From the NCBI GenBank assembly GCA_947384955.1, contig CANDJC010000026.1, forward strand, positions 1 through 45,200: a DNA stretch of 45,200 nt. The letters run 5' to 3'. Each line of letters opens with the position of its first letter. Position 1 is the first letter of the stretch. A model generated the notes under the pieces. The model had not been told where the DNA came from. It saw only the letters and a program-made list of their open reading frames with translations, and made no database searches. Made by a program: the position numbers and the translations under genes. Positions 6,927 through 32,504 of the stretch are shown piece by piece. This DNA comes from an uncultured Eubacterium sp. (GTDB taxonomy: Bacteria; Bacillota; Clostridia; Lachnospirales; Lachnospiraceae).

Positions 6927-7183
6927 GCGGACGCCGGGTGACGGGAAGATGCACCGGCTTTCTGTGACGGCTCCGGAATGTTAAGAATCCCTAAGCATTC
7001 TGCATTTACGCTGTGGCAGCGGACGGGACGCGGCACCTATTCGCCCTGGCTTACTGCCAGAAGCTACTGGTGCCGCTGCGGCTTTGCCGCCTGGTTATTG
7101 TGGCAGAAAGCTAAGGGATTCTAAACATTCCTCCGATGTCACAGAAAGCCGGTGCATCTTCCCGTCACCCGGCTGGTTTTAGC
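6927..7183 (+). repeat. Structured intergenic repeat, copy B (divergent)
   Basis: This is the shortest complete copy (257 bp). The outer arms 6933-6968 and 7138-7173 are perfect 36-bp inverted repeats starting GCCGGGTGACGG, a sequence unlike the arms of copies C-F apart from the end. The second stem (about 6974-7002 with 7108-7136) pairs at 26 of 29 positions and keeps the CTAAG:CTAAG pairing seen in the other copies. The apical hairpin is GCGGCACC/GGTGCCGC where other copies have GGCGCCTG/CAGGCGCC, so this stem is also compensated. The third hairpin is reduced to GCGGC-TTT-GCCGC. The termini keep GCGGACGCC and GGCTGGTTTT. Confidence 0.85.
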
Positions 7184-7357
7184 TGGCTTTACATGTAAAA
7201 CGGGAGACTTTATGCTGGATTTTTATTTGGCAGGAAGAGGGTAAACTGCTGCTGAAAAGCTGTCTGTACTTCGAAATTCATGCAGGTAACGCCAGCCAGA
7301 AAACAGATGGGAGAGGGGGATTCTTAATATTCTGGAAGCGCCGCAGAAAAATTGTGC
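7184..7357. other. Non-coding stretch between repeat B and terminator
   Basis: No plausible gene or known riboswitch was recognised in these 174 bases. Together with repeat B and the following terminator hairpin it fills the 839-bp gap between the divergent trkH and the flavin split-barrel gene. It may be the 3' part of a non-coding transcript covering repeat B. Confidence 0.4.
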
Positions 7358-7396
7358 AATTCCATCTCTCGGCGTACGGGAGAATGGAATTTTTTA
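7358..7396 (+). terminator. Rho-independent terminator with no obvious gene upstream
   Basis: AATTCCAT plus TCTC pairs with GAGAATGGAATT across a short loop and is followed by a run of T (GGAATTTTTT). It is a good intrinsic terminator on the plus strand, yet the nearest plus-strand feature upstream is repeat B, and trkH points away. It therefore suggests a non-coding transcript, or an attenuator in a long leader. Confidence 0.65.
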
Positions 7397-7451
7397 TGTC
7401 TGACTGATGCGTAACTTAATCTGGAGGGTCACAGATTTTCATAAAAAACAG

Positions 7452-7480
7452 TTGCTATTAAAGGAAATATTGAGTATATT
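7452..7480 (+). promoter_or_regulatory. Sigma-A promoter before the flavin split-barrel gene
   Basis: TTGCTA, 17 bases, TATATT. It lies about 120 bp upstream of the start at 7598 and downstream of the 7358-7396 terminator, so the gene probably has its own transcription start. Confidence 0.55.
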
Positions 7481-7597
7481 AAATAGAAATGAATCACTGG
7501 CGGAGACGGGAAAGCTTTCGTGTAAATGAAGCAGAGGGGTGGATTTTCTGCCTTATTTTTAGCATGGAGGATAAAAGAAGAAGAGGAGAATCGTTCA

Positions 7598-8020
7598 ATG
7601 AATAAATTAAGTTTAAATAAAGAAGCAGAAGAGATTATGACGGAGCGGTTTGGTAAAGATACGGTAATCGCGCTTGCAACTTTAGATAATCATATTCCCT
7701 GTGTAAGGTATGTAAATGCTTTTTATGAAAATGGCGCTTTTTATATTATTACGCATGCGCTTTCGAATAAAATGAAACAGATAGCGGACCGCCCTGTTGT
7801 GGGAATTGCCGGTGAATGGTTTACGGGACATGGTAAAGGTATCAGTCTTGGTTATTTTGGAAATGAGGAGAACAGCTGGATTGCCGGGAAGCTGAAAAAA
7901 GCTTTTGCAGAATGGATTGATAACGGGCATACGGATTTTGATGATGAAAATACAATTATTTTATGTCTGGAACTGACGGACGGGCAGCTGCTTTCTCACG
8001 GAAAGAAGTATGAATTATAA
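7598..8020 (+). CDS. Pyridoxamine 5'-phosphate oxidase-like flavin split-barrel protein
   Basis: The product is 140 aa, typical of the small FMN-binding split-barrel family. The core is recognisable from VIALATLDNHIPCVRYVNAFYENGAFYI through the ALSNKMKQIADRP helix to a late strand IILCLEL. Family members bind FMN or related cofactors and many are of unknown substrate; there is no reason to call this a true PdxH. The ATG at 7598 has GAGGAG 10 bases upstream; the frame is open back to 7526, but without a ribosome site. It appears monocistronic, although the MalY-like gene follows 98 bp later on the same strand. Confidence 0.8.
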   Translation: MNKLSLNKEAEEIMTERFGKDTVIALATLDNHIPCVRYVNAFYENGAFYIITHALSNKMKQIADRPVVGIAGEWFTGHGKGISLGYFGNEENSWIAGKLKKAFAEWIDNGHTDFDDENTIILCLELTDGQLLSHGKKYEL

Positions 8021-8118
8021 TCAGTAAGGTTATGAAATCAATGCAGAGGGAAGATGTTTTTTAACGGGAATAGTTTTTGTATCCATGGATTATTTTACAA
8101 TGAGGAGGAGCTTAAGTG

Positions 8119-9333
8119 ATGAAGTATGATTTTACATCCATCCTGGAACGGAATGGAAAAGATGCGATTGCCCTTGACGGGGCCGGAACGAAAGGAGCTC
8201 CTGGTCTTCCGAAAGAAGGATTTGACTTTATTCCGATGTGGGTTGCGGATATGAATTTTCCAACAGTGCCGAGTGTGCCAGAGGCTGTCATAAGGCGTGC
8301 CAGTCATCCGGCATATGGGTATTTTGAGCCCTGTGAACAGTATTTTCGTTCCATTATCAGCTGGCAGGAGCAGCAGCATCAGGTAAAAGGCCTGCAGAAA
8401 GAACATATTGGATATGAAAACGGTGTTCTTGGCGGTGTGATATCGGCACTGACCAGTTATGCGGCGCCTGGGGATGCGGTTTTGCTTCACAGTCCTGTTT
8501 ATATTGGTTTTTCGCAGTCTATTACACAAAACGGGTATCGAATGGTGTTAAGCGGGCTGAAAAAAGACAGCCAGAATGTATACCGCATGGATTATGAAGA
8601 TATGGAAAAGAAAATCAAAGAAAACCATATTCATGTGGCGGTTTTTTGTTCGCCGCATAATCCTTCCGGCCGGGTCTGGGAACGTGAAGAGCTGGAAACA
8701 GCGATGGAAATTTTTGAAAAATATGAAGTAACGGTTATTTCGGATGAAATCTGGTCAGATATTCTGTTAAATGGAAACATCCACATTCCGGTGCAGTCTG
8801 TCAGTGTATATGCCAGAGAACATACGGCGGCGTTTTATGCTCCGAGCAAAACGTTTAATCTGGCCGGACTGATTGGAAGCTATCATATTATTTATAACCG
8901 CACCATGCGCGACCGGATTCGTTCGAAGGGGGCAAAGACGCATTATAACAGCATGAATGTCCTTTCCATGCATGCACTGACTGGCGCATACGGAGAGGAA
9001 GGCCGGGAATGGGTGAAGGAACTCTGCCAGGTATTAAGCGGAAATGTCAATTATGCCTGTGATTTTATTGAGAAACATTTTGACGGCATTTCGGTTTCTA
9101 AGCCGCAGGGAACTTATATGCTGTTTTTAGACTGTACAGACTGGTGTATGAAACATGGAAAAACAATGGATGAGCTTTTAAGAGCCGGATGGGATGTCGG
9201 AGTGGGGTGGCAGGACGGAAGGCCTTTTTACGGTCCGTGTCATATCCGGATGAACCTGGCGCTGCCGCTTACAAGGGTACAGGAAGCATTCAGCCGTCTG
9301 AACAGGTATGTATTTGCGGAGAATGCAGAATGA
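8119..9333 (+). CDS. MalY/PatB-type PLP-dependent cysteine-S-conjugate beta-lyase
   Basis: The product is 404 aa, a class I/II fold aminotransferase of the MalY/PatB group. The motifs are: MWVADMNFPTVPSV near the N-terminus (the MWVADMDF block), HPAYGYFEP, ENGVLGGV, CSPHNPSGRVW, ISDEIWSDI, and the PLP lysine in APSKTFNLAGL (about Lys244). Members split cystathionine or cysteine conjugates to a thiol, pyruvate and ammonia. The start is ATG 8119 or the adjoining GTG 8116, both served by GAGGAGGAG at 8102-8110. The stop overlaps the next gene's start as ATGA, so the two are translationally coupled. Confidence 0.88.
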   Translation: MKYDFTSILERNGKDAIALDGAGTKGAPGLPKEGFDFIPMWVADMNFPTVPSVPEAVIRRASHPAYGYFEPCEQYFRSIISWQEQQHQVKGLQKEHIGYENGVLGGVISALTSYAAPGDAVLLHSPVYIGFSQSITQNGYRMVLSGLKKDSQNVYRMDYEDMEKKIKENHIHVAVFCSPHNPSGRVWEREELETAMEIFEKYEVTVISDEIWSDILLNGNIHIPVQSVSVYAREHTAAFYAPSKTFNLAGLIGSYHIIYNRTMRDRIRSKGAKTHYNSMNVLSMHALTGAYGEEGREWVKELCQVLSGNVNYACDFIEKHFDGISVSKPQGTYMLFLDCTDWCMKHGKTMDELLRAGWDVGVGWQDGRPFYGPCHIRMNLALPLTRVQEAFSRLNRYVFAENAE

Positions 9334-10616
9334 AAGCCCGTATTTATGATGCGGCTGTGATTGGAGCCGGTGCGTCCGGCCTTATGACAGCGATATGCGC
9401 GGCGCGAAGAGGCAGGGATGTTATACTGCTGGAACATATGGACCAGCCAGGGAAAAAAATTCTTGCTACCGGAAACGGAAAATGCAATTATACCAATGCA
9501 GACCAGGCGCTGGATGCTTATTACTGTGAAGACAGGTCATTTATCCGTACGGTACTTGAACAGTTTTCCTGTACAGATGCGATTCGTTTTTTTGAAGAGC
9601 TTGGCATCCGTCCGCTTCAAAAAAACGGGACCTGCATTTATCCTGAAAGCGAGCAGGCTTCATCCATAAGAAATGCACTGACAGCGGAAGTAAAACGGCT
9701 TCAGATACCGCTTGTGTTATCGGCCGCGGTTCAAAGCATCCAAAAGGACACGGATAAAAATATTTTTTTGATTCAGACGAAAGGACAGCCCGTATACTGT
9801 CGCAGCTGTGTCCTTGCTGCCGGCGGAATGGCCGCAAAAAAAACAGGCAGTGACGGAAGCGGTTATATTTATGCAAAACAGCTTGGACATACCATTACAA
9901 AACCACTGCCCGCTCTGACAGCACTGACTGCAGACTATTCCAGACGGAAGCTGCCAGCCGGTGTCCGTACCGGATGTCTGGCATCTTTGCTGATTGATAC
10001 AAAAACGAAGGCCAGAGAGCGTGGAGAGCTTCAGATTACGGACTACGGAATATCAGGCATTGTGATTTTTCAGTTCAGCCGGACGGCCGTACGCGCATTG
10101 TCAGAAAACAGACAGGTGCAGGTATCGCTGGATTTTAAGCCGGATATGTCTAAAAAAGAACTGACCGCGTATTTGAAAAACCGGTTTTTGGGCATTTATA
10201 CGGCACAGAAGGAAGCAGGGGAAGGTCTGAACGGCTTTCTGCCAGATAAACTTTCAGCAGTGATATTATCGCAGAGCGGCATTTTGCAAAACACACGATG
10301 CAGAGACCTGGACGAAACACAGATTCGAAACCTGGTGCGGTACATCAAGGACAACAGGGTTACCGTTACAGGATACAGGGATTTTGATTTTGCGCAGGTA
10401 ACAGCAGGAGGCGTGCCCGTATCGCAGATTCATCCCCGGACAATGGAATCCAGGCTGGTAAAAGGCCTGTTTTTTGCAGGAGAAATCATAGATGCAGATG
10501 CAAAATGCGGGGGATATAACCTGCAGTGGGCATGGGCAAGCGGATATATAGCAGGAAGGAGCATACAGGCACATGATTCGAATTCAGCAGATAAGAGTAC
10601 CTCTAAACCACAGTAA
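9330..10616 (+). CDS. NAD(P)/FAD-dependent oxidoreductase, HI0933/YhiN/BaiN-like
   Basis: The product is 428 aa. AAVIGAGASGLMTAICAAR is the ADP-binding motif, KKILATGNGKCNYTN is the hallmark of the HI0933 (YhiN) family, and GGVPVSQIHPRTMESR and FFAGEIIDADAKCGGYN close the FAD site near the C-terminus. A relative (BaiN) was reported in bile-acid dehydroxylating clostridia, but this family is broad and the substrate here is open. The start ATG overlaps the stop of the lyase gene (ATGA). The 3' end overlaps the next flavoprotein by 44 bases. Confidence 0.85.
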   Translation: MKARIYDAAVIGAGASGLMTAICAARRGRDVILLEHMDQPGKKILATGNGKCNYTNADQALDAYYCEDRSFIRTVLEQFSCTDAIRFFEELGIRPLQKNGTCIYPESEQASSIRNALTAEVKRLQIPLVLSAAVQSIQKDTDKNIFLIQTKGQPVYCRSCVLAAGGMAAKKTGSDGSGYIYAKQLGHTITKPLPALTALTADYSRRKLPAGVRTGCLASLLIDTKTKARERGELQITDYGISGIVIFQFSRTAVRALSENRQVQVSLDFKPDMSKKELTAYLKNRFLGIYTAQKEAGEGLNGFLPDKLSAVILSQSGILQNTRCRDLDETQIRNLVRYIKDNRVTVTGYRDFDFAQVTAGGVPVSQIHPRTMESRLVKGLFFAGEIIDADAKCGGYNLQWAWASGYIAGRSIQAHDSNSADKSTSKPQ

Positions 10617-12210: not shown

Positions 12211-12324
12211 CGGATTGTTTTAGGGAGCTTTCGGGACACCCTAAATAATGCCACTGATTCACATCCTGAATCCCTCTCACATCACCTCCTGCAACAATTT
12301 TCCAGCGTTTATGCACATTTGTAC
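12211..12324. other. Gap before mutS with weak hairpin and one DnaA-box-like site
   Basis: TTTAGGG (12219-12225) pairs with CCCTAAA (12239-12245), a possible weak end to the flavoprotein transcript without a T run. TTATGCACA at 12309-12317 matches the DnaA box consensus, but it is single. Nothing else is recognised. Confidence 0.3.
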
Positions 12325-12353
12325 TTGCCCATTTCTTTACAGAGGGTTATAAT
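12325..12353 (+). promoter_or_regulatory. Sigma-A promoter of mutS
   Basis: TTGCCC, 17 bases, TATAAT, ending 60 bp before the mutS ATG. The spacing and perfect -10 make this the likely start point for mutS. Confidence 0.65.
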
Positions 12354-12412
12354 ACCTTTGATTTATAAATAGAAATGAAAGATTTCAAAAGAAGAGAGAG
12401 GTTTCAAACTAA

Positions 12413-15076
12413 ATGGCAGATATGATGTCAGAAGCAACGCCGATGATGCGGCAGTATTTAAAAATGAAGGAGGATTATAAAGACTGCATTTTATTCTACC
12501 GTCTTGGTGATTTTTATGAAATGTTTTTTGAAGATGCGCTAAAAGCATCAAAAGAACTGGAATTAACGCTGACTGGAAAGAACTGCGGCCTGGAAGAGAG
12601 GGCTCCTATGTGCGGCGTTCCGTACCATTCCGTTGAAGGCTATTTAAATAAGCTGGTAGGAAAAGGATATAAAGTCGCCATCTGTGAACAGGTTGAAGAT
12701 CCAAAACAGGCCAGGGGCATTGTACACCGCGAAGTCATCCGGGTTGTAACGCCTGGCACGAATACGAATCTTCAGGCGCTGGATGAATCTAAAAATAATT
12801 ACATAATGTCTGTGATTTATTTAAACGGGCGCTACGGCATTTCGACTGCGGATGTAACAACAGGCGATTATTATGTGACCGAAGTGGAAACCGAGCAGAA
12901 ACTTATGGATGAGATAAATAAATTTGCGCCTTCTGAGATTATCTGCAACGAAGCTTTTTACATGAGCGGGATTGATATGGAAGAGATTCGTGCGCGGCTC
13001 GGTGTCAGTATTTCTTCGCTGGATGCCTGGTATTTTTCGGATGAAACAGCTTCGGCTGCACTGCTTGGACATTTTAAAGTCAACAGTGTGGAAGGACTTG
13101 GCTTAAAAGATTATCCTTACGGTACGACAGCTGCCGGGGCCCTTTTGAAATATCTGTATGAAACGCAGAAAACATCCATGGAACATCTGTCTTCCATTCA
13201 TCCTTATACAACCGGAATGTTTATGGTCATAGACAGCTCCACAAGGCGGAACCTGGAACTTGTAGAAACGATGAGGGAAAAGCAAAAGCGCGGCTCTTTG
13301 TTATGGGTATTGGATAAAACCAAAACAGCCATGGGTGCAAGGACTCTGCGCTCTTATGTGGAGCAGCCTTTAATCGAATGCAGCGAAATCGAACGGCGTT
13401 TAGATGCCATTGAAGAAATCAACAGCCGCGTCATAGACCGTGAAGAAATCCGCGAATATCTGCATCCGATTCATGACCTGGAGCGTCTGATTGCGCGTGT
13501 TACATACCAGACCGCCAATCCCAGAGATTTCATCGCGCTTCGCAATTCTTTAAAAATGATTGCGCCGCTGAAGCAGATTTTGGCTGAGTTTCACTGTTCT
13601 TTGTTAAAAGAAACGTTAAAAGACATGGACGAGCTGGAGGATATTTATGATTTGATTGAGTCCTCGATTGAAGAAGATGCCCCGATTTCCGTCCGGGAAG
13701 GCGGTATTATCAAAAACGGTTTCAAAGAAGACATCGACAGGCTGCGTGAGGCCAGGACAAACGGCAAGACCTGGTTAGCCGATGTGGAAAAGAAGGAGCG
13801 GGACGAAACAGGAATTAAAAATTTAAAAATCAAACATAACAAAGTATTCGGCTATTATCTGGAAGTTACAAATTCATATAAAAATCTGGTGCCGGAGCAT
13901 TATGTCCGAAGGCAGACACTGGCTAATGCCGAGCGTTACATTACACCGGAGCTAAAAGAGCTGGAGGATATGATTTTAGGAGCGGAAGATAAGCTGGTAG
14001 CGCTGGAATACGATTATTTTTGCGAAATACGCCAAAGCATTGCAAAAGAAGTTATCCGCATCCAGAAAACAGCAAAGGCGGTTGCCGTATTAGATGTGCT
14101 TGTATCGCTGGCTGTTGTGGCAGAAGAAGGCCGCTACTGCAGGCCCGGCCTGAATGAATCCGGTGTGATTGATATCCGCGAAGGCCGTCACCCGGTTGTT
14201 GAAAAAATGATAAGCCATGATATGTTTATTACAAATGATACGTATCTGGACCATGCGGACAGCCGTATTTCCATTATTACAGGCCCGAATATGGCAGGAA
14301 AGTCCACTTATATGCGCCAGACTGCACTAATTGTCATGATGGCGCAGATGGGCAGCTTTGTCCCGGCAAAATCTGCGGATATCGGCCTGGTAGACAGAGT
14401 CTTTACCAGAGTCGGCGCCTCGGACGACCTGGCCAGCGGGCAGAGCACGTTTATGGTGGAAATGAATGAGGTTGCAAATATTCTGCGCAATGCCACCGAT
14501 AAAAGCCTCCTGATTTTAGACGAAATCGGACGCGGCACCAGCACATTTGACGGATTAAGCATTGCCTGGGCAGTCGTCGAGCATATTTCAAATCCAAAGC
14601 TTCTGGGTGCCAAAACGTTATTCGCTACACATTATCATGAACTGACGGAGCTGGAGGGAAAGCTTGATAACGTAAATAATTACTGTATCGCTGTAAAAGA
14701 AAAGGGGGACGACATTGTATTCCTTCGCAAAATCGTAAAGGGAGGCGCCGACAAAAGCTACGGCATCCAGGTCGCCAAGCTGGCAGGCGTGCCGGAAAGC
14801 GTGATTGAGCGCGCGAAGGAAATTGTCGAGGAATTAAGCGAGCATGATATTACGGAAATTACAAAAAATCTGACGGTGAAGAATGCAGCCGCAAAACCGA
14901 AAAAGAAAAAAACGCAGCCGGATACGCTGGATTTGGAGCAGATTTCTTTGTTTGATACGGTGAAGGATGATGATATTATTGAGGAGCTGCGAAGTGTGGA
15001 TATTAGTTCTATGACACCGCTTGAGGCTATGAATAAACTGAATGAGCTGCAGAACAAAGTGAAAAATAGGTGGTAA
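12413..15076 (+). CDS. mutS: DNA mismatch repair ATPase MutS
   Basis: The product is 887 aa, full length for MutS1. Residues 20-45 hold the mismatch-probing motif in DFYEMFFEDA (Phe-X-Glu). Connector, lever and clamp regions follow, and the C-terminal ABC-type ATPase shows Walker A GPNMAGKSTYMRQ (about residue 625), LILDEIGRGTSTFDG and FATHYHELTEL. It recognises mispairs and loops in newly made DNA and recruits MutL. AGAGAGAGG lies 11 bases before the ATG. The usual mutS-mutL adjacency is kept but is separated by a 1.35-kb block of repeats and AT-rich DNA. Confidence 0.97.
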   Translation: MADMMSEATPMMRQYLKMKEDYKDCILFYRLGDFYEMFFEDALKASKELELTLTGKNCGLEERAPMCGVPYHSVEGYLNKLVGKGYKVAICEQVEDPKQARGIVHREVIRVVTPGTNTNLQALDESKNNYIMSVIYLNGRYGISTADVTTGDYYVTEVETEQKLMDEINKFAPSEIICNEAFYMSGIDMEEIRARLGVSISSLDAWYFSDETASAALLGHFKVNSVEGLGLKDYPYGTTAAGALLKYLYETQKTSMEHLSSIHPYTTGMFMVIDSSTRRNLELVETMREKQKRGSLLWVLDKTKTAMGARTLRSYVEQPLIECSEIERRLDAIEEINSRVIDREEIREYLHPIHDLERLIARVTYQTANPRDFIALRNSLKMIAPLKQILAEFHCSLLKETLKDMDELEDIYDLIESSIEEDAPISVREGGIIKNGFKEDIDRLREARTNGKTWLADVEKKERDETGIKNLKIKHNKVFGYYLEVTNSYKNLVPEHYVRRQTLANAERYITPELKELEDMILGAEDKLVALEYDYFCEIRQSIAKEVIRIQKTAKAVAVLDVLVSLAVVAEEGRYCRPGLNESGVIDIREGRHPVVEKMISHDMFITNDTYLDHADSRISIITGPNMAGKSTYMRQTALIVMMAQMGSFVPAKSADIGLVDRVFTRVGASDDLASGQSTFMVEMNEVANILRNATDKSLLILDEIGRGTSTFDGLSIAWAVVEHISNPKLLGAKTLFATHYHELTELEGKLDNVNNYCIAVKEKGDDIVFLRKIVKGGADKSYGIQVAKLAGVPESVIERAKEIVEELSEHDITEITKNLTVKNAAAKPKKKKTQPDTLDLEQISLFDTVKDDDIIEELRSVDISSMTPLEAMNKLNELQNKVKNRW

Positions 15077-15120
15077 TTTAAGGGGATACTCTGCATTTTA
15101 GGGGGAGGGGAGGGGGCTCC

Positions 15121-15414
15121 GCGGACGCTGGATGGAGAAACTTTTTCCTTCTGATGTTCCGTTTCCGAAAAGCAGGAAGTTCTAAGTTTTCTGCATTCAG
15201 GCTGTGGCTGCTTACGGACCGGCGCCTGATGCCCTGGCACAGAGAGAGTGCAAAGTTACTGGCACAGGCAGGCGCCTTTTGGGGCTTCAAGGTTTTATAA
15301 GGGGATAAACTGTGAGCCCCAAATCCTGGGTTTTGAGCAGAAAACTAAGAACTTCCAGCTTTTCTCCAAAGTCACATCAGAAGGAAAAAGTTTCTCCATC
15401 CAGCTGATTTTGGC
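15121..15414 (+). repeat. Structured intergenic repeat, copy C (reference copy)
   Basis: 294 bp starting 45 bp after mutS. The outer arms 15127-15156 and 15375-15404 are a perfect 30-bp inverted repeat (GCTGGATGGAG...). The second stem, 15167-15194 with 15337-15364, pairs at 26 of 28 positions; the two exceptions are A:A oppositions. Inside lie hairpin GGCGCCTG (15221-15228)/CAGGCGCC (15269-15276) and hairpin TTTGGGGCT (15278-15286)/AGCCCCAAA (15315-15323). The termini GCGGACGC and CAGCTGATTTTGGC are shared with other copies. No protein is encoded. The layout is that of a multi-stem structured RNA or a DNA cruciform. Confidence 0.9.
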
Positions 15415-16016
15415 GAGAATAAACGTTTGAATGGCGAAATGATATGTATTTAATTATAATTTTCTTTCTGACACCTGTTACAAATTTTTTATTCGATATC
15501 ATATGAAGATGATACAGCGATAATCAAATGTAATATATAGCGCACCAGTTATAAGCTTTTGATTTGATACAAGATACAGATTAAATAGAAGCGAATATAT
15601 ACAAGATATAATATTGATTATTACAAAAATATATCGAAATTTGAAAAATTGTAAATTGGTGTATATAGCATAGATTTTCACAAAAATACATTAAAATCAG
15701 TAAAGCTGTAAATGGGTGTTTTTGAGATACCAGTTTACAAGTTTTTGATTCTATGCCATATCTAAACCATAAGCTATAGCTAAATACAATATAATTTAGA
15801 TTTTCGTAATAATACATCAAAATCAGTAAATTTGTAAACCAGTATTATGTGAATATAAAATAAAATTTTTCAGGAGCAAAAACTTAAAACATATGTAAAC
15901 AACATTACATAACAAAAATAATTACCGCACAGATATTGAAAATCCGCCCTTAAAGTATTCACCATTTATGCCCGAAACAAGAACTCACCGTACAGCAAAA
16001 TAAACCGTAAAAAATT
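15415..16016. repeat. AT-rich spacer with degenerate tandem repeats between copies C and D
   Basis: About 600 bp of very AT-rich DNA with no convincing gene. A motif of roughly 46 bp occurs three times (15615-15660, 15672-15718, 15798-15843; core AAAATCAGTAAA..TGTAAA), and a second motif (CCAGTT.A.AAG.TTTTGATT) occurs at about 15545 and 15730. Together they imply an old direct duplication with a period of about 185 bp. Short reading frames here are AT-driven and lack ribosome sites. Confidence 0.6.
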
Positions 16017-16333
16017 GCCAAAGTCAGCCGGAGGGAGAAACTGTTTCCTTCTGATGTGACTTTGGAGAAAAGTTAGAAGTTCTTAGTTTTCTGCTCAAAA
16101 CCCAGGATTTGGGGCTCACAGCTTATCTCCTTATAAAACCTTAAAGCCCCAAAAGGCGCCTGCCAGTGCCAGTAACCTTGCACTCTCTCTGTGCCAGGGC
16201 AGGGCCCACCTCGTTTTATCGGGTGTCAGGCGCCGGTCCGTGAGCAGCCACAGCCTGAATGCAGAAAACTTAGAACTTCTTACTTTTCGGAAACGGAACA
16301 TCAGAAGGAAACAGTTTCTCCCTCTGGCGTCCG
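16017..16333 (-). repeat. Structured intergenic repeat, copy D (inverted partner of C)
   Basis: 317 bp in the opposite orientation to copy C, ending about 95 bp before mutL. The outer arms 16027-16056 and 16299-16328 match at 29 of 30 positions, and the exception is a G:T wobble. Relative to C the arm changed from ATGG to AGGG and from TTTTTC to TGTTTC, and both changes are compensated in the other arm. The second stem keeps the same two mismatch positions. The copy carries about 24 extra bases near 16203-16226 in the loop of the GGCGCC hairpin. Confidence 0.88.
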
Positions 16334-16429
16334 TTTCCAATTCCCCCTTTGACGCTTAAAAAAATCCCTCTCCAGCGTCACCCAGTCGCCTGAAAATGTA
16401 TCGCCACATTCAAAAAGGAGCCCGTCCTT

Positions 16430-18874
16430 ATGTCAAAAATACAAGTATTAGATGAACAGACCATCGATAAAATCGCCGCCGGAGAAGTCGTTGAACGGCC
16501 TTCTTCTGTTGTAAAAGAACTGGTAGAAAATGCCGTTGATGCAAGAGCAACCGCCATTACCATTGAAATCAAAGACGGCGGCATTTCCTTAATCCGGATT
16601 ACAGACAATGGCGAAGGCATTCCGAAGGAGCAGGTTGCCTCCGCATTTTTACGCCATGCCACCAGCAAGATAACAAGTGCGGAAGACCTTCTGACAGTTT
16701 CATCGCTTGGTTTTCGCGGGGAAGCTCTTTCGAGTATTGCGGCGGTTGCGCAGGTGGAGCTGATTACAAAAACCGCGTCGGAATTAACCGGGACGAAGTA
16801 TGTAATAGAAGGTTCCAAAGAAAAGAGCATAGAGGATATCGGCGCGCCGCAGGGGACGACGTTTCTTGTAAGAAACCTGTTTTATAATACGCCTGCAAGG
16901 CAGAAATTTTTAAAGTCGGCGCAGACGGAGGCTTCTTATATTGCTACGCTGGCAGAGCGTCTGGCGCTGTCGCATCCGGATATTTCTTTTCAGGTCATTG
17001 TGAATAACCAGCCGAGGCTGCATACAAATGGAAATACGCGGATTAAGGATATTATTTATCATATTTTCGGCAGAGATATTGCGGCGGGGACGGTACCTGT
17101 ACAGGAGAAAAAGGAGCTGCTGTCTGTAGAGGGATTTATTGGAAAGCCGTTTATTTCCAGGGGAAACCGGAATTTTGAAATATATTTTATTAACGGGCGC
17201 TATATTAAGAGTACGCTGATTACAAAGTGCATCGAAGACGCCTATAAGCCATTTATGATGAAGCATCAGTATCCGTTTACGGTGCTGCAGATTTCTATAG
17301 ACAGCGATTTGATAGATGTCAATGTCCATCCTGCGAAAATGGAAATCCGGTTTTGTCAGAGCGAGTCTGTTTACAGGGAGCTGACGGATATCCTTCAGGC
17401 TGCATTAAAGCACCAGGATATGATTCAGGATGTTTCCGCAGATAAAGAAACGAAAAAAAAGAAACCGGATACCAGACCTGTCAGCCGAAGGCCGGAACCG
17501 TTTGAAAAAAAGAGGCTGGAGGCGCTTTCAGCAGCCCTGAAATCTGACAGCCCTTATGAACGTAAATACGCAAAACCGCCTGCAGCAGAAAATGCGGAGC
17601 AGAAAGGATTAGCCGCTTCGGACTCTAAGCTGCGGGATGCTGCTGTTTCTGATAGCTGTGCTGAAAAGCAAATGTCTGGCGGCGTTCCGTCAGCATTCCT
17701 GAATAACCCAGGTCAGGATATCATTCTGAATACAGGCAGTCATTCCGTCTCTGGCGGTCATTTGAAAACAGCCGGCAATTCAGATACAGGCAGTCATTTA
17801 AATATGGACAGCCATTTGGATGAAGGTAGTCTTTTAGAAACGGCTAGCAATTTAAATACAGGCAGTTATTTGAAAACAGCCAGCCGCTCAGACACAGGCG
17901 GCCTCTTGGATGCAGCCAGCCGCTCGGACACAGGCGGCTTTTCGGATGCAGCCAGCTGCTCAGACACAGGCGGCCTTTCGGATGCAGCCAGCTGCTCAGA
18001 CACAGGCGGCCTTTCAGATGCAGCCAGCCTTTCGGATACAGGCGGCCATTTGGCTGCAGACAGTTACGCTGCCACAGGCAGCTATCCAGATATGCGCGGT
18101 TATGCAGTGAATGGAAAAGACACGGCTGCAGACAGCCAGACATCTGCCAGCAGCGATTCCGATATGGAAACACAGCCGCATACAGAAGCTTCAGCCGCAT
18201 GTAAAGACAGCTGCAGTACCGGTACATACAAATATGAACAGCTGTCCATTGCAGAGACGGAATTTTATCATACGGATTTTATCAAAGAAGCGAAGCGCCG
18301 CAATTACACCGTTATCGGCCAGATTTTTGATACATACTGGCTTGTTCAGGCTGAGAACGAACTGTTTCTGATTGACCAGCATGCGGCACACGAAAAAGTT
18401 CTGTATGAACGGATGATGAATCAGCTGAAAAAACAGGAATTTACCTCTCAGCAAATCAGCCCGCCCATCATTATTACCATGACGATGCAGGAGCAGGAAT
18501 TATTCCATAAATACGAGGAGCAGTTTTCGCAGATTGGATTTGAAATCAATGCATTTGGCGGAAGGGAGTATGCGCTGTGCGCGGTTCCTGATAATTTGTA
18601 CGGCCTTGACCCCAGAGAGCTTTTCCTGGAAATGTTAGACGGATTAAATCATGATACGAGAAGGCAGACGCCGGATATGATACTGGAAAAAATTGCGTCG
18701 ATGTCCTGCAAGGCAGCGGTGAAAGGGAAGCAGCGGCTGTCTGAACAAGAGGCGCGCAGCCTGCTTTCTGACCTGCTTGAGCTGGAAAATCCATATCACT
18801 GTCCGCACGGAAGGCCGGTCATTATCGCGATGTCGAAAACGGAAATTGAAAGAAAGTTTAAGCGGATTGTATAA
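16430..18874 (+). CDS. mutL: DNA mismatch repair endonuclease MutL with expanded repeat linker
   Basis: The product is 814 aa against a usual 600-680. The N-terminal GHKL ATPase is complete: IAAGEVVERPSSVVKELVEN, DNGEGIPKEQ and TSKITSAEDL..LGFRGEAL. The C-terminal domain keeps the metal-binding endonuclease signature DQHAAHEKVLYE, plus SCKAAVKG and CPHGRP, so it should nick DNA as in other methyl-independent systems. The excess length is in the linker, about residues 433-560, made of imperfect 12-residue repeats of the type SDTGGLSDAASC. AAAAAGGAGC precedes the ATG. It overlaps nothing and is followed 15 bp later by miaA. Confidence 0.96.
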   Translation: MSKIQVLDEQTIDKIAAGEVVERPSSVVKELVENAVDARATAITIEIKDGGISLIRITDNGEGIPKEQVASAFLRHATSKITSAEDLLTVSSLGFRGEALSSIAAVAQVELITKTASELTGTKYVIEGSKEKSIEDIGAPQGTTFLVRNLFYNTPARQKFLKSAQTEASYIATLAERLALSHPDISFQVIVNNQPRLHTNGNTRIKDIIYHIFGRDIAAGTVPVQEKKELLSVEGFIGKPFISRGNRNFEIYFINGRYIKSTLITKCIEDAYKPFMMKHQYPFTVLQISIDSDLIDVNVHPAKMEIRFCQSESVYRELTDILQAALKHQDMIQDVSADKETKKKKPDTRPVSRRPEPFEKKRLEALSAALKSDSPYERKYAKPPAAENAEQKGLAASDSKLRDAAVSDSCAEKQMSGGVPSAFLNNPGQDIILNTGSHSVSGGHLKTAGNSDTGSHLNMDSHLDEGSLLETASNLNTGSYLKTASRSDTGGLLDAASRSDTGGFSDAASCSDTGGLSDAASCSDTGGLSDAASLSDTGGHLAADSYAATGSYPDMRGYAVNGKDTAADSQTSASSDSDMETQPHTEASAACKDSCSTGTYKYEQLSIAETEFYHTDFIKEAKRRNYTVIGQIFDTYWLVQAENELFLIDQHAAHEKVLYERMMNQLKKQEFTSQQISPPIIITMTMQEQELFHKYEEQFSQIGFEINAFGGREYALCAVPDNLYGLDPRELFLEMLDGLNHDTRRQTPDMILEKIASMSCKAAVKGKQRLSEQEARSLLSDLLELENPYHCPHGRPVIIAMSKTEIERKFKRIV
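17727..18110 (+). repeat. In-frame 36-bp minisatellite in mutL
   Basis: Four closely matching 36-bp units run from 17888 to 18031 (SDTGG(L/F)(L/S)DAAS(R/C/L)), flanked on both sides by degenerate units with the same Ser-Asp-Thr-Gly rhythm. Because the unit is a multiple of three, gain or loss of a unit would change linker length without breaking the frame. Confidence 0.9.
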
Positions 18875-21161: not shown

Positions 21162-21181
21162 ATATGCTAAGATTATATACT
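21154..21181 (+). promoter_or_regulatory. Possible sigma-A promoter before radC
   Basis: TTGGAT, 16 bases, TATACT; the -35 touches the end of the preceding gene. It is about 48 bp upstream of the radC start and could drive the whole radC-mre-min operon. Confidence 0.5.
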
Positions 21182-21228
21182 GTATATTCCTTTTTTACTC
21201 AGCCTGATAGAGAGTGGAAAGGATATTT

Positions 21229-21927: not shown

Positions 21928-21948
21928 GCCCTGATAGGAGACAAAATT

Positions 21949-22965: not shown

Positions 22966-22976
22966 GAGTCCCTGGC

Positions 22977-23846: not shown

Positions 23847-23866
23847 CTTTACATGAGAGGTTTTGC

Positions 23867-27233: not shown

Positions 27234-27250
27234 CTTAAAGGGGGAAGAAA

Positions 27251-27952: not shown

Positions 27953-27973
27953 TAAATCAGGAGGATTCATAAT

Positions 27974-28765
27974 ATGTGTGAAGTCATTGTAATTACATCA
28001 GGAAAAGGCGGTGTCGGCAAAACTACGACTACGGCAAATGTCGGATGCGCCCTTGCCATGCTCGGCAAAAAAGTCGTTTTAATCGACACCGATATCGGAC
28101 TCAGGAATCTGGATGTTGTCATGGGATTAGAAAACAGGATTTTATATAATCTTGTAGACGTTATCAAAGGCAGCTGCCGGATGAAGCAGGCGCTGATTAA
28201 GGATAAACGCCATCCGACCCTGTACCTGATTCCTTCCGCACAGACCTGTGATAAAACGGCCGTTACGCCGCAGCAGATGAAAAAACTGACGGACGGCTTA
28301 AGGGAGGAGTTTGATTACATACTTCTGGACTGTCCTGCAGGCATTGAGCAGGGATTTCAAAATGCGATTGCCGGAGCAGATCGGGCCATTGTCGTAACCA
28401 CACCGGAAGTATCGGCAATCCGTGACGCAGACCGCATTATCGGACTTTTAAAAAACGCCAGCATGCCGCAGATTGAGCTGTTAATCAACCGGGTCCGCAT
28501 GGATATGGTAAGGCGGGGCGACATGATGTCATTAAAGGATGTCTGCGAAATCCTGCCCATTCCGTTAATCGGCGCGGTGCCGGATGATGAAAACATTGTC
28601 ATTTCCACAAACCAGGGGGAACCTTTATCCGGTCTTGATTCTTTATCCGGACAGGCATATCAGAATATCTGCCGCCGCATCTGCGGTGAAAAGCTGCCTA
28701 TTATGGACCTAGGCCAGAAAAAAGTATGGTTTCAGCGTTTTCGCGGATTAACCAGGCGTGTATAG
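27974..28765 (+). CDS. minD: Septum site-determining ATPase MinD
   Basis: The product is 263 aa. The deviant Walker A ITSGKGGVGKTTTTANVG, LIDTDIGLRNLDVVMG and YILLDCPAGIEQGF are classic MinD/ParA motifs. The C-terminal tail (VWFQRFRGLTRRV) is amphipathic and probably the membrane-targeting helix. It binds the membrane as an ATP dimer and carries MinC. GGAGG lies 8 bases before the ATG. Confidence 0.97.
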   Translation: MCEVIVITSGKGGVGKTTTTANVGCALAMLGKKVVLIDTDIGLRNLDVVMGLENRILYNLVDVIKGSCRMKQALIKDKRHPTLYLIPSAQTCDKTAVTPQQMKKLTDGLREEFDYILLDCPAGIEQGFQNAIAGADRAIVVTTPEVSAIRDADRIIGLLKNASMPQIELLINRVRMDMVRRGDMMSLKDVCEILPIPLIGAVPDDENIVISTNQGEPLSGLDSLSGQAYQNICRRICGEKLPIMDLGQKKVWFQRFRGLTRRV

Positions 28766-28777
28766 GAGGCGTTATTC

Positions 28778-29065
28778 ATGAGATTTTTGCGTTTTATATT
28801 TCGAAGGAATTCTAAAGATGTGGCGATGGACCGCCTGAAGCTGCTGCTGATTTCAGACAGAACAGACTGTTCTGCAGATATGCTGGAAATGATAAAAAAC
28901 GATATTATCCAGGTGATTTCTAAATATATGGAAATCGATACGGAAGGACTTGACATTCAGATTACGCGCACGGCATCGCAGACGCATAACGGCACGGTCC
29001 CGGCGCTTTATGCAAACATTCCGATTGTATGTGTCAAGCACCAGCCGGAATATCAGGAGTCTTAA
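28778..29065 (+). CDS. minE: Division topological specificity factor MinE
   Basis: The product is 95 aa, the usual size. The first helix (MRFLRFIFRRNSKDVA) fits the membrane-binding start, followed by AMDRLKLLLISDRTDCSADM, the anti-MinCD region with the conserved R(L)KLLL block, and a topological-specificity domain. With MinC and MinD adjacent this is a complete Min oscillator set, so an oscillating system rather than only a DivIVA-anchored one is expected. Confidence 0.95.
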   Translation: MRFLRFIFRRNSKDVAMDRLKLLLISDRTDCSADMLEMIKNDIIQVISKYMEIDTEGLDIQITRTASQTHNGTVPALYANIPIVCVKHQPEYQES

Positions 29066-29121
29066 GATAAAAGAAAAAGACCTTTTACATACTACTCGAG
29101 AAAACCCGGAGGCATAATGAG

Positions 29122-30222
29122 ATGTTTAAAATGTATTCCATAAAAGATTACCGTTTCCGATTGTGCCTGTATGTCATTTCCGTGACTGTCATCGGCATTT
29201 TAGTAATCGGAAGCGCCAGGGAAGCGGTACAGGACAAGCAGGTGCTCGGCCTGATGCTCGGGCTTGCGGCCATGCTTGTGCTGTCGCTGTTTGACTATTC
29301 CTTTCTGCTGAAGCTGGCCTGGCCGATGTATTTCGGAAATATTGCCCTGCTTGCTGCCGTTATTCTTATGGGCAAGGGCTCGCATGGCGCAACAAGATGG
29401 ATTGAAATTGCCGGAATCCGCTTCCAGCCGTCCGAATTGTCAAAAATCGTGGTTATCCTGTTTTTTGCGTATTTTTTTATGCGCTATCAGGAACAGATCA
29501 ATACATTCCGCGCGTTAGCGGTGACGGGAGTGCTGATTGCGATTCCGCTCGGGCTGGTCTTACAGTCTGACCTGTCTACGACAATTGTAACGACATTAAT
29601 TTTCATTACCCTCTTGTTTATTGCCGGAATAAGTTATAAAATAATTGGAAGAGCGGCAGCTGTCTTAATACCGGCAGCAATCGTTGTACTGTACCTGATT
29701 ATGCAGCCGGACCAGACAATTATCAAAGGCTATCAGGTCAACCGGATTTTAGGCTGGCGCTATCCGCAGAAATATCCGGATATTGCATACCAGCAGCAGA
29801 ATTCCATTATGGCAATCGGTTCCGGCCAGCTGTGGGGCAAAGGGCTGAACAACGATAATTTTGATTCCGTTAAAAATGGAAATTTCATTTCGGAACCGCA
29901 GACAGATTTTATCTTCTCCGTGGTCGGGGAAGAGCTGGGGTTTGTCGGGTCAGCAGCGGTTATCATCCTGCTGATGCTGATTTCGCTGGAATGCATTCTG
30001 ATTGGCAGAAAAGCAAAAGATTTAGCCGGGCGCCTGATTTGCTGCGGCATGGCGGCTCTTGTCGGTTTTCAGAGTTTTGTAAATATTTCAGTTACAACCG
30101 GCCTTCTGCCAAATACGGGACTGCCGCTTCCATTTGTCAGTTACGGGCTGACATCTTTAGTTTCATTGTATATAGGGATAGGTATTGTACTAAATGTGGG
30201 CTTGCAGCCAAAAAAATATTAG
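29122..30222 (+). CDS. rodA: SEDS glycosyltransferase RodA
   Basis: The product is 366 aa with about ten membrane spans. Family blocks are GATRWIEIAGIRFQPSELSK, QSDLSTTIV, QNSIMAIGSGQLWGKGL, DFIFSVVGEELGF and NTGLPLPFVSYGLTS. It polymerises lipid II into glycan strands with PBP2. Location after minE and with PBP2 in the same run favours RodA over FtsW or SpoVE. CGGAGG precedes the ATG. An in-frame Met4 is the only alternative start. Confidence 0.92.
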   Translation: MFKMYSIKDYRFRLCLYVISVTVIGILVIGSAREAVQDKQVLGLMLGLAAMLVLSLFDYSFLLKLAWPMYFGNIALLAAVILMGKGSHGATRWIEIAGIRFQPSELSKIVVILFFAYFFMRYQEQINTFRALAVTGVLIAIPLGLVLQSDLSTTIVTTLIFITLLFIAGISYKIIGRAAAVLIPAAIVVLYLIMQPDQTIIKGYQVNRILGWRYPQKYPDIAYQQQNSIMAIGSGQLWGKGLNNDNFDSVKNGNFISEPQTDFIFSVVGEELGFVGSAAVIILLMLISLECILIGRKAKDLAGRLICCGMAALVGFQSFVNISVTTGLLPNTGLPLPFVSYGLTSLVSLYIGIGIVLNVGLQPKKY

Positions 30223-30241
30223 AAACGGGGTGATATACAGA

Positions 30242-30637
30242 ATGAATATTGGATTAATCGCACATGACTCGAAGAAAAAACTTATGCAGAATTTTTGTAT
30301 TGCATACCGTGGTATTTTATGTAAAAACGAATTGTTTGCAACAGGTACAACCGGACGTCTGATTGAAGAGGTGGCAAATCTTTCCATCCACAAATATCTG
30401 GCAGGGCATTTAGGAGGCGCACAGCAGCTGAGCGCACAGATTGAGCAAAATGACATTGACCTTGTAATATTCCTGCGTGACCCTATGACGCCGAAAAAAC
30501 ACGAACCGGATGTCAATAATGTTGTAAAACTGTGTGATACCTATAATATTCCGCTGGCAACTAATCTTGCTACAGCAGAGCTTTTAATTAAATCGTTAGA
30601 CAGAGGAGATTTAGAGTGGCGTGAGATGTACAGATAA
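30242..30637 (+). CDS. mgsA: Methylglyoxal synthase family protein with altered active site
   Basis: The product is 131 aa. IGLIAHDSKKKLM, ATGTTGRLIEE, FLRDPMTPKKHEPDV and NIPLATNLATAELLI match methylglyoxal synthase, which turns dihydroxyacetone phosphate into methylglyoxal. In E. coli the GGDQQ motif carries Asp71, the catalytic base; here it reads GGAQQ, so the activity may be altered or rely on another acidic residue. The start is the ATG at 30242 with GGGGTG upstream; the frame extends back into rodA, but without a ribosome site. The end overlaps the carboxypeptidase start by 17 bases. Confidence 0.85.
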   Translation: MNIGLIAHDSKKKLMQNFCIAYRGILCKNELFATGTTGRLIEEVANLSIHKYLAGHLGGAQQLSAQIEQNDIDLVIFLRDPMTPKKHEPDVNNVVKLCDTYNIPLATNLATAELLIKSLDRGDLEWREMYR

Positions 30638-31613
30638 CAGGCGGTACCGTCTGGCTGCGATTGCGGCTGCAGGCATGCTTTTGTTTTGCAGCTGCGGTTC
30701 AAAAACATATGAACTGGAACATCCTTATGATGTTTACGGGACACAGATTCATTATGAATCCCTGCAGCCGGAAGGGGAAACCGCCACAGATTCTCTTTCC
30801 TATTTTGCCAAAGATTTATGTACGGCCGAAGATGTTTCCATCAGCATACCGGCCGCTTTAGACAGCGCAGCCCAGGCCGCCGGTGTCTTTCACTTAAATG
30901 AACAGACCGTTACATATTCGAAAAACATTTATAAAAAACTGTATCCGGCCAGTACGACAAAAATACTGACCGCATACACCGCATTGAAACATGCAAATCT
31001 GACAGATATCGTAACCGTAAGCGCCCAGGCCGCTAATCAGGCAGGAGATTCCTCTGTCTGCGGCCTGAAGGCAGGCGACAGCCTTTCTCTGGAAGAGCTG
31101 CTGTACGGCCTGCTGCTCGAAAGCGGCAATGACGCGGCTGTAGCCATTGCAGAGCATGTATCAGGAAGCAGCGAGGCATTTGCGTCCCTGATGAATGAAG
31201 AGGCCGCTGCACTGGGCGCTACGCATTCTCATTTTTCGAATCCTCACGGGCTTCACGATGATGAACATTATACCTGCGTGTATGATTTGTATCTGATGCT
31301 GAACGCTGCGCTGCAGGATGAAAAATTCCAGACGATTGTGAGTGCACATTCGCATCATGCTGTTTATAAGGACGCTGGCGGGAATCAGGTGACCCAGGAA
31401 TGGGAAACGACGGATAAGTTCTTAAACGGGGAGGTGAATCCGCCGGACGGGGTTCGCGTGATTGGCGGGAAGACCGGGACTACGAATGCAGCGGGGTACT
31501 GCCTGGCGCTGTATAGCCAGAATGCGGCGGGGGAGCCGGTGATTTCGATTGTGCTTAAGGCGGACAGCAGTGAGAATCTTTATGGGCTGATGGGGGAGCT
31601 TATGCAGAGATAA
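30621..31613 (+). CDS. D-alanyl-D-alanine carboxypeptidase, peptidase S11 family
   Basis: The product is 330 aa. It starts at GTG inside mgsA (GGAG 13 bases upstream) with a basic and hydrophobic leader ending LLFCSCGSK, which looks like a lipoprotein signal with Cys as the anchor. The serine-hydrolase motifs are complete: SxxK in PASTTKILTA, SxN in ESGNDAAVA and KTG in GGKTGTTNAAG. It trims the terminal D-Ala of wall peptides. The C-terminal dimer-like domain of PBP5 is absent. It is the last gene of the radC-mre-min run, which ends in repeat E rather than in a clear terminator. Confidence 0.9.
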   Translation: MRCTDNRRYRLAAIAAAGMLLFCSCGSKTYELEHPYDVYGTQIHYESLQPEGETATDSLSYFAKDLCTAEDVSISIPAALDSAAQAAGVFHLNEQTVTYSKNIYKKLYPASTTKILTAYTALKHANLTDIVTVSAQAANQAGDSSVCGLKAGDSLSLEELLYGLLLESGNDAAVAIAEHVSGSSEAFASLMNEEAAALGATHSHFSNPHGLHDDEHYTCVYDLYLMLNAALQDEKFQTIVSAHSHHAVYKDAGGNQVTQEWETTDKFLNGEVNPPDGVRVIGGKTGTTNAAGYCLALYSQNAAGEPVISIVLKADSSENLYGLMGELMQR

Positions 31614-31643
31614 CTGGGGGCTGAAAAGGGGAGTGGCGGCTTC

Positions 31644-31942
31644 GCGGACGCCGGATAAGTGTGTCTGCCCTGTTTCAGTGTTCCGGTTTCAGAATGTAAG
31701 AAGCCCTAAGTATTCTGCGCCAGGGTTATGGCAAGCCGGACGGACCGGCGCCTGATGCCCTGGCGTTATTGTATACTCCAGGCAGTGGCTCTGGCAGGCG
31801 CCTTTTGGGGCTTCAGGGGTTTTGTAAAAAGATAAACTGTGAGCCCCAAATCCTGGGTATTGAGCAGAATACTAAGGGCTTCTAACATTCTTCCACAGTC
31901 ACACTGAAACAGGGCAGACACACTTATCCGGCTGGTTATTGG
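31644..31942 (+). repeat. Structured intergenic repeat, copy E
   Basis: 299 bp starting 30 bp after the carboxypeptidase gene. The outer arms 31650-31681 and 31901-31932 are a perfect 32-bp inverted repeat beginning GCCGGATAAGTGTG, a sequence different from copies B and C/F yet fully self-complementary. The second stem again has the two same-position A:A mismatches around CTAAG. The GGCGCCTG/CAGGCGCC and TTTGGGGCT/AGCCCCAAA hairpins are retained. The termini are GCGGACGCC and GGCTGGTTATTGG. Confidence 0.88.
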
Positions 31943-32208
31943 AAGACGGTACGTTTTTTTGTTTATCTGTATTTTTTATTCGTTATAAAACAATAACAGA
32001 CACTTTATCCGGCTGGTATTGAAATATGTTTCAATTTTAGAATTTATTGCAACATTAGAGTTTTAGACAAAGTAAATAGCACTGAAATGATGTGTTTGTG
32101 CTTTTTCCGTCTTACTTTTCAGCTTTGAATATAAGCATCCCCTGACCTTTACTTCATTTCTGCCTTCCAGAGAAAACTTAAAAACTGATTCAGAATAACC
32201 TGGACTAA
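31943..32208. other. Spacer between repeats E and F, with a duplicated end fragment
   Basis: No gene is seen in these 266 bases. At 31996-32020 about 25 bases (CAGACACTTTATCCGGCTGG...) repeat the right terminus of copy E, as if an end had been duplicated or a second copy lost. Immediately after it, ATTGAAA/TTTCAAT forms a short AT hairpin followed by TTTT at 32018-32036, a possible weak terminator. Confidence 0.5.
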
Positions 32209-32504
32209 GCCAAAAAACAGCTGGATGGAGAAACTTTTTCCTTCGGATGTGACTTTGGAGAAAAGTTAGAAGTTCTTAGTTTTCTGCTCAATCCCCAGGA
32301 TTTGGGGCTCACAGTTTATCTTCTTACAAAACCCTCGAAGCCCCAAAAGGCGCCTGCCAGCGCCACTGCTTAGAACTGCCAGTAACGCCAGGGCATCAGG
32401 CGCCGGTCCGTGAGCAGCCACAGCCTGAATGCAGAAAACTTAGAACTTCTTACTTTTCGGAAACGGAACATCCGAAGGAAAAAGTTTCTCCATCCAGCGT
32501 CCGC
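32209..32504 (-). repeat. Structured intergenic repeat, copy F (inverted partner of E)
   Basis: 296 bp in inverse orientation. The outer arms 32220-32249 and 32469-32498 are a perfect 30-bp inverted repeat. It is nearly the same arm as copy C but with CTTCGGATG in place of CTTCTGATG, and the opposite arm changed to match (CATCCGAAG). The second stem keeps both A:A (here T:T on the plus strand) mismatches. It ends 45 bp before the -35 of the P-loop gene promoter. Confidence 0.88.

Follow-up and report, generated by a model that had tools for sequence, protein, structure and literature searches.

Paired hairpin repeats of an uncultured Eubacterium are probably mobile DNA elements related to the TwoAYGGAY family

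TwoAYGGAY is filed in Rfam (RF01731) as a structured RNA, and the part of PMC2864571 that deals with it grades it as 'RNA: probably, cis-regulatory: probably not'. In a passage of PMC4333381 binding of CsrA was proposed on the basis of its AYGGAY loops, and its external stem was described as poorly conserved; further passages discuss its loop energies (PMC11661157) and two additional covarying pairs (PMC11701678). None of the passages on TwoAYGGAY that we found describes it as mobile or as paired. Here we analysed a family of hairpin repeats in 45,200 nucleotides of an uncultured Eubacterium sp. of the Lachnospiraceae (assembly GCA_947384955.1, contig CANDJC010000026.1, positions 1–45200, hereafter the window). 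One of the window copies, C, matched RF01731 on its minus strand at 15161–15370 over the full model (61.9 bits, E 1.5e-9; gathering score 43), and the statement of an earlier, sequence-only reading of the window that no named family has this layout is thus wrong at least for this copy. Our analysis indicates that the repeats are probably mobile DNA hairpins resembling miniature inverted-repeat transposable elements (MITEs), that they form a divergent branch of TwoAYGGAY, and that their arms are kept complementary mainly by templated copying.

Repeat search and nhmmer placed five complete copies, B to F, exactly where the sequence-only reading had located them. Hairpin B (6927–7183, plus strand; arms 6933–7003 and 7103–7173) is a short subtype of ~257 nt, for which nhmmer found no partner within the window. 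Hairpin C (15121–15414, plus strand; arms 15127–15194 and 15337–15404) faces hairpin D (16017–16333, minus strand) across an A+T-rich spacer (15415–16016) containing degenerate repeat copies and stretches resembling a second palindromic repeat, and hairpin E (31644–31942, plus strand; arms 31650–31718 and 31864–31932) faces hairpin F (32209–32504, minus strand; arms 32220–32287 and 32431–32498) across a spacer at 31943–32208. All five are hairpins of ~260–320 nt in which outer arms, an internal loop and an inner stem lead up to small hairpins at the apex, and their outer arms are unlike in sequence yet pair almost perfectly. The outer stem is about 36–37 bp in B, 32 bp in E and ~31 bp in C, D and F, close to the lengths first reported, and the single G.T pair described for D and the compensated changes among C, D and F are all present in the sequence. 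Four features had gone unnoticed: a cut sixth copy, hairpin A (1–69, minus strand), of which the outer part remains, the contig starting inside it (nhmmer match to model positions 2–70); a conserved GGACG(C) outer terminus adjoining the variable arms; the convergent arrangement of C with D and of E with F; and inner-stem A.A mismatches that are conserved.

We compared the arms across the family, in the source genome and in its congeners. After identical sequences had been discarded, 213 of 230 full hits were kept, and the first 26 arm positions were evaluated in 208 of these (three had no anchor and two matched at under 20 of the 26 positions). The arms of the same copy were 97.3% complementary, with the offset of the 3′ arm picked for best complementarity, which slightly favours pairing. 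When the 3′ arms were redealt, keeping register and without re-fitting, complementarity was 53.2% (maximum 57.0% in 200 shuffles), so that the pairing lies well beyond chance; it was 90.6% when each 5′ arm was set against the 3′ arm taken from its closest non-identical copy. The mean difference between 5′ arms was 47%, and they comprised 174 distinct sequences. Position 3 was mismatched in 55 of the 208 elements, 52 of them among the 106 congener copies, and was omitted from the pair counts because T.G is frequent there. A position-anchored count of the remaining pairs gave 98.3% Watson–Crick (5111 pairs, beside 26 G.T, 43 A.C and 20 other), and the arms were fully perfect in 101 of the 208 elements.

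A stem that is kept while its sequence varies is also what a functional structured RNA would display, perhaps a CsrA-binding small RNA whose pairing is selected and which spreads by duplication. Significant RF01731 matches, the conserved inner-stem mismatches described below and the CsrA proposal for TwoAYGGAY loops (in the passage of PMC4333381) agree with such an RNA. Comparison of nearest neighbours gave 146 changes in both arms from one Watson–Crick pair to another, two other two-arm changes and 90 one-arm changes (136 comparisons); when position 3 was left out, the numbers were 150, 1 and 87 respectively (143 comparisons). In an RNA under selection, one strand should have G.U more often than A.C, and the position-anchored count, with 26 G.T against 43 A.C, did not show G.U being tolerated over A.C. 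The lack of a G.T excess over A.C, together with mostly two-sided changes, argues against selection for an RNA fold. Nor did either strand fold consistently better across the 213 elements: the plus strand was the more stable in 78 of 103 copies of the source genome and in 36 of 110 congener copies, so that the preference reverses between the two sets and the strands are about equal overall. The numerous convergent pairs, the split mutSL operon, the outer repeats and the target duplications found in some congener units, all described below, are further points against an RNA, which we regard as an unlikely explanation. The sequence-only reading had offered both structured RNA and DNA hairpins with arms copied from one another; the former is now disfavoured, and the latter gains from the two-sided changes, the absence of a clear G.U excess or a consistent strand preference, and the transposon-like flanks in congeners. 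Two-sided stem changes are known to arise by template switching at inverted repeats, according to the part of PMC8794818 that treats it. Since the arms are still paired where the outer ends in the source genome have become unrecognizable, we read the pairing as arm-to-arm copying in place.

The inner stem departs from perfect pairing at two defined places. All 213 elements had an A.A mismatch at inner position 18, and 206 had a second one at inner position 8, exactly 10 away, whereas of the other 26 inner-stem positions 20 were paired in more than 95% of elements and the lowest in 85%. Copying alone would erase such mismatches, and they are therefore probably maintained by selection, for example as a signal that a protein recognizes. 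A distance of 10 bp corresponds to roughly one B-DNA turn, which is suggestive only. An inner TTTACRT motif was dropped as a family feature, being present in 40 of the 103 copies of the source genome but in only two of the 110 others.

The convergent arrangement seen in the window proved to be the prevailing one. When distinct stretches were counted, 109 of 112 neighbours in plus-then-minus order lay less than 2 kb apart (115 of 118 with overlapping loci), compared with none of 14 in minus-then-plus order (none of 15 with overlapping loci, the nearest at 2574 nt). The 111 distinct spacers enclosed by such units ranged from 45 to 5188 nt, with a median of 314 and three above 2 kb. Whole-element k-mer similarity was higher between partners of a unit than between non-partners (0.41 compared with 0.23 in the source genome, 0.29 compared with 0.21 elsewhere; 55 pairs). 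The possibility that each unit has two fixed end types was rejected, the first arm bases of partners being no more alike than those of non-partners (0.71 compared with 0.70 in the source genome and 0.62 compared with 0.61 elsewhere), although heterotypic pairing was not put to a formal test.

Constant pairwise orientation, and the fact that few copies lie inside genes (11 of 165 midpoints within open reading frames (ORFs) of at least 120 amino acids), would also suit fixed chromosomal sites such as terminators, insulators or protein-bound landmarks, with arms under selection and transposon remains nearby by chance. The orientations of the flanking genes, however, were close to background: tandem, divergent and convergent in 21, 5 and 3 of 29 units, compared with 299, 39 and 36 of 374 background cases. 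The median distance from a unit end to a gene was about 65 nt for 3′ ends (n=27) and 195 nt for 5′ ends (n=31). Copy number within this single genus ranges between 0 and several hundred, and no element lies between mutS and mutL in eight of nine congener loci; both facts also speak against fixed sites, which we consider quite improbable.

In the window, mutS ends at 15076 and mutL starts at 16430 (assigned by Pfam), and the gap between them (15077–16429) holds unit C/D, which splits the mutSL operon. The distance between the two genes is 1353 nt here and 6–72 nt, measured between alignment ends, in eight of nine congener loci carrying both genes. In the ninth (G008) it is 224 nt, and on comparison of the loci (L113–L124) this gap was seen to hold a short hairpin with GGACGCC adjoining an inverted outer repeat (TGAACGGTTAC). 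As a hairpin and an outer repeat are present there too, the mutS–mutL gap may have been hit by two insertions.

Outside the hairpins, two congeners (G007 and G010) showed a conserved inverted repeat, GTAACAGTTCAGATAGGGTGTTACATTTTGG, directly adjoining them on both sides, and this repeat was also present at both ends of three units of G009; units with the conserved outer repeat (GTAACAGTTCAGATAGGGTGTTAC) thus occur in three congeners. A search by pattern gave 198 matches in G010, 12 in G007, 10 in G008 and seven in G009, with none in the eight other congeners and none in 298 other genomes of the family Lachnospiraceae. Exact 8-bp direct repeats stood at the tip of L302 (676 nt, a pair) and L358 (320 nt, a single hairpin); L361 (319 nt, single) had an 11-bp direct repeat shifted by three bases, and among the three G009 units L377 showed an 8-bp repeat offset by four bases at one end, with none in the remaining two. 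The remaining ten of the 13 two-ended units of G007 and G010 had no direct repeat or one of merely 5 bp, so target duplications are found in a minority of congener units. The outer inverted repeats together with these duplications make the unit look like a MITE. The sequence-only reading had noted that the ends differ among copies and had taken this to argue against a MITE. The first point holds for the arms; it does not hold for the adjacent GGACGC or for the outer repeat conserved in some congeners. The second fails because the conserved transposon-like ends, degenerate in the source genome, lie outside the variable arms.

In the source genome the flank is G-rich and degenerate, ending in TGGCTnCG beside GGACGC, and by eye the flank of hairpin B (6903–6936) resembles the outer inverted repeat of the congener units. 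Inverted outer flanks in general scored 11.1 on average compared with 9.8 for mismatched partners (37 pairs), with few loci standing out. Such degenerate ends are consistent with older insertions, without being proof of them. The outer repeat is itself a TGTAACA...TGTTACA palindrome, and at L350 (G000 C169) and L365 (G010 C162) it stands near small ORFs and HipA-like genes (identified by eye) with no hairpin beside it; the sequence might also act as an operator, or be a relic.

A transposase for these units would be expected to act in trans, and several candidates were considered. IS66 elements have ends beginning GTAA and make an 8-bp duplication. As a driver IS66 was rejected, there being no match at E ≤ 1e-10 in G000, G003, G007 or G010, of which G000, G003 and G010 are high-copy genomes. 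No parent transposon with the same ends was found, and the outer repeat was absent from 30 IS66 loci of about 1.7–3.9 kb, which need not extend to both ends of each insertion sequence. A Y1/HuH transposase was rejected likewise, copy number being uncorrelated with Y1_Tnp matches across congeners. Such an enzyme, of RAYT type, would move the repeats as single-stranded hairpins, much like REPINs, which are inverted REP doublets according to the relevant part of PMC3116915; inverted pairs, hairpins with conserved mismatches and hundreds of mostly intergenic copies all recall them. The congener units with 8-bp duplications and outer inverted repeats do not fit. To our knowledge, Y1 transposition is not expected to yield that combination. 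Moreover, no Y1_Tnp reached E ≤ 0.001 in G002, where the pattern matched 157 times, G011 has three Y1_Tnp and no pattern match, and the intact Y1 gene of the source genome lies in a 2.7-kb locus (L102) without an element. A REPIN-like origin is thus very improbable.

We next consider how widespread the family is. In the source genome a query with copy C gave at least 41 near-full-length places, C among them, 40 of the 298 first-look candidates having been scored. The inner-stem pattern GCAGAAARCTAAGRRMTTCY had 425 forward and 440 reverse matches there, whereas the reversed control had 1 and 4; since it can match up to once per arm, the genome carries several hundred copies. Similarity at the BLAST level (E ≤ 1e-20) was confined to the source genome among 61 genomes, and profile searches revealed members in congeners. 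A degenerate pattern was found in 11 of 13 genomes of the genus, the source included, with 0–677 matches per genome, two of the positive genomes having merely one or two matches (control, 1 in total). The genus presumably corresponds to the Eubacterium plexicaudatum group. Across 397 genomes of the family, 48 non-genus genomes had one or two pattern matches (50 in total; control, 13 in 11 genomes), and nhmmer recognized no element in 29 such loci that were fetched (best 10.6 bits). A scan of GTDB contigs gave at least 90 stretches, and all 80 matches listed came from uncultured Eubacterium or Eubacteriaceae assemblies. Plasmids and phages had no match to copy B, and of two pattern stretches in viral contigs neither held an element (best 10.3 bits). 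A congener presumably like E. plexicaudatum (G004) has 91 IS66 and 54 Y1_Tnp matches, yet two hairpin-pattern matches. In G000, 24 of the 40 ends of 20 contigs (C101–C120) lie within 150 nt of an element, so that elements probably account for much of the fragmentation of the source assembly.

The relationship to TwoAYGGAY was then analysed from both sides. A default-filter Rfam scan of the window gave nothing, and a permissive scan of short stretches yielded the RF01731 match of copy C. Among 20 further loci of the repeat family (15 of the source genome and five of congeners), five matched RF01731 at 66.7–72.9 bits, all of them in the source genome. RF01731 itself was present in 35 of 200 Lachnospiraceae genomes and in none of 14 control genomes; in nine of these 35 it was found at every one of 13 candidates scored. 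Twenty RF01731 loci contained 29 hits, and seven of eight close neighbours were convergent in element orientation (L429–L433, L439 and L444), although five of these seven loci, and the tandem L434, had been chosen since they were already seen close together. L434 has two TwoAYGGAY copies in tandem, about 300 nt apart. All 29 hits had inverted repeats extending beyond the Rfam model, mostly without an obvious common sequence: with the flanks alone, all 29 scored above the 99% point of mismatched partners, and three outer repeats were perfect and gap-free over 31, 31 and 39 bp. A rough alignment that included loops gave 45 G.T and 33 A.C.

TAA/TAA mismatches like those of the window family were also present in RF01731, with at least one in 23 of the 29 hits (two in 14, one in nine), and the first two A.A were spaced 10 apart in 17 of 19 hits with two or more. 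Neither these mismatches nor the paired outer stem of unconserved sequence is part of how Rfam defines the family. The common mismatches, the pairing and the outer stem make common descent likelier than a chance resemblance of shapes. At L435 and L442, and more weakly at L413 and L436, single TwoAYGGAY hairpins share a common GGGTGTCAAAAGG end, outside which the locus-specific inverted repeat continues for about 14 nt. No target duplication was seen in five single TwoAYGGAY units, the flanks of which run on as further inverted repeats. With rather less confidence than for the window family, we lean towards the wider view that TwoAYGGAY, a candidate structured RNA since 2010, is mainly a widespread superfamily of mobile DNA in gut Clostridia, with large hairpins in convergent pairs as its ends, a 'covariation' produced by arm copying, and two mismatches a helical turn apart by which a putative transposase or host protein would recognize it.

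A number of observations weigh against mobile hairpins of TwoAYGGAY descent with copied arms. Under the permissive scan, the Rfam comparison that the sequence-only reading had proposed left copies B, D, E and F unmatched, and none of the five congener loci reached RF01731. The AYGGAY loops were not seen by eye in the alignment of copy C, whose loops are about 30 nt, which is awkward for descent from TwoAYGGAY and for an RNA reading alike. The conserved A.A mismatches resemble selection on a fold and are not explained by copying alone. The balance of G.T and A.C hinges on the counting method: two rougher parsers, both since replaced, gave an excess of G.T (58 compared with 27 when position 3 was included, and 94 compared with 53 with a block parser that ran into the internal loop), as a selected RNA would have it, and the mismatched states in the nearest-neighbour comparisons, without position 3 and with copies recounted, were 41 G.T and 28 A.C. 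Same-strand neighbours numbered 18, of which 13 were under 2 kb apart (13 of 144 distinct stretches); eight of these 13 are tandem fragments in contigs C72 and C87.

The transposon features have similar limits. The outer repeat was detected by pattern in just four of 12 congeners and was mostly one-sided in G008; in the source genome the pattern had three matches, and the repeat did not exceed shuffles in the flanks. Twelve of the 16 two-ended units (13 of G007 and G010, three of G009) lacked a duplication. Transposon ends and duplications are therefore a finding from congeners, none being established for the window copies. No transposase was recognized by eye in the 111 spacers, and the missing IS66 in high-copy genomes and missing Y1_Tnp in G002 noted above count against the mobile reading as well.

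The spacers themselves hold little in common. In the source genome any sharing was found in 105 of 1378 spacer pairs, in 74 of which both members carry the second palindromic repeat. This repeat, of about 115 nt (CCAGTTTACA...TGTAAACTGG), is present in 16 of 53 spacers of the source genome, including that of unit C/D. Tandem arrays occur in 23 of 53 spacers of the source genome and 14 of 52 others, compared with two of 53 control stretches. At C87:1–950 (L024) and C72:1–1450 (L021) the spacers consist of tandem decayed copies of the 3′ part of the hairpin, with a period of about 118 nt in C87, which looks like repeated duplication of the inner end of the element. An ORF of at least 90 amino acids was found in 12 of the 111 distinct spacers; judged by eye, these include GNAT-, XRE-, YbaK- and Rpn-like genes and, in the longest, ABC transporter genes, one further long spacer holding other genes besides and the rest being repeat junk. 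Genes for Rpn/PDDEXK_2-like nucleases, again by eye, lie inside one unit (L276, of G009) and next to one outer repeat (L349, G000 C190).

Taken together, our results suggest the following course of events. The family would be a divergent branch, at genus level, of the TwoAYGGAY superfamily, made up of non-autonomous MITE-like DNA, whose usual unit would be an outer inverted repeat, a hairpin, a spacer, an inverted hairpin and a second outer inverted repeat, single-hairpin units occurring too. The hairpins follow one plan: their GGACG ends are conserved and the outer stem varies, the inner stem carries two A.A mismatches (TAA/TAA) a helical turn apart, and the apical part holds small hairpins. 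A putative transposase would place the units in intergenic DNA, duplicating 8 bp of the target, and the window copies may have arrived by this same route. After insertion, DNA synthesis would repeatedly copy one arm from the other, by template switching or arm conversion at the inverted repeat, and the A.A mismatches would presumably be retained through a protein that recognizes either the hairpin once extruded or the DNA sites themselves. If this is true, a family filed as RNA from its compensatory changes is a mobile DNA element. New structured RNAs are called mainly on the evidence of covariation, and the family offers a natural experiment on how far template switching by itself can imitate that signal. 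Where the Rfam model fails, members of the superfamily would be recognizable by the hallmarks described here: convergent pairing, phased A.A mismatches, and an outer stem that varies yet stays paired.

Among known systems, the closest is TwoAYGGAY. Both families have a long hairpin with two apical hairpins and an unconserved outer stem, both form inverted pairs, both carry A.A mismatches (which appear as U.U on the strand used by Rfam) at a spacing of 10 bp, and both reach many copies in some Lachnospiraceae genomes. The window copies differ in being longer (~260–320 nt), in their apical sequences, which are without AYGGAY loops, and in their GGACGC end and often GC-rich arms, and their short subtype, copy B, is missed by the model. 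As with bacterial MITEs such as BrickBuilt of Porphyromonas gingivalis, as far as the consulted part of PMC4596501 describes it, the units are noncoding and mostly intergenic. They share with MITEs the terminal inverted repeats (in congeners), target duplication in some cases and internal tandem arrays; unlike MITEs, their interior is one or two large self-complementary hairpins with co-evolving arms, and no parent insertion sequence was found. REPINs and REPs, in the account given in part of PMC3116915, are likewise high-copy, intergenic, inverted doublets that form hairpins. The present hairpins are much longer, are accompanied in congeners by an 8-bp duplication and outer repeats, and show no correlation with Y1 transposases. 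Finally, stem maintenance by template switching, in the relevant part of PMC8794818, predicts two-sided, stem-restoring changes without selection on RNA, as observed here; the case treated there concerns RNA genes, whereas here it would extend to transposon-like DNA with arms of ~30 bp in hundreds of copies.

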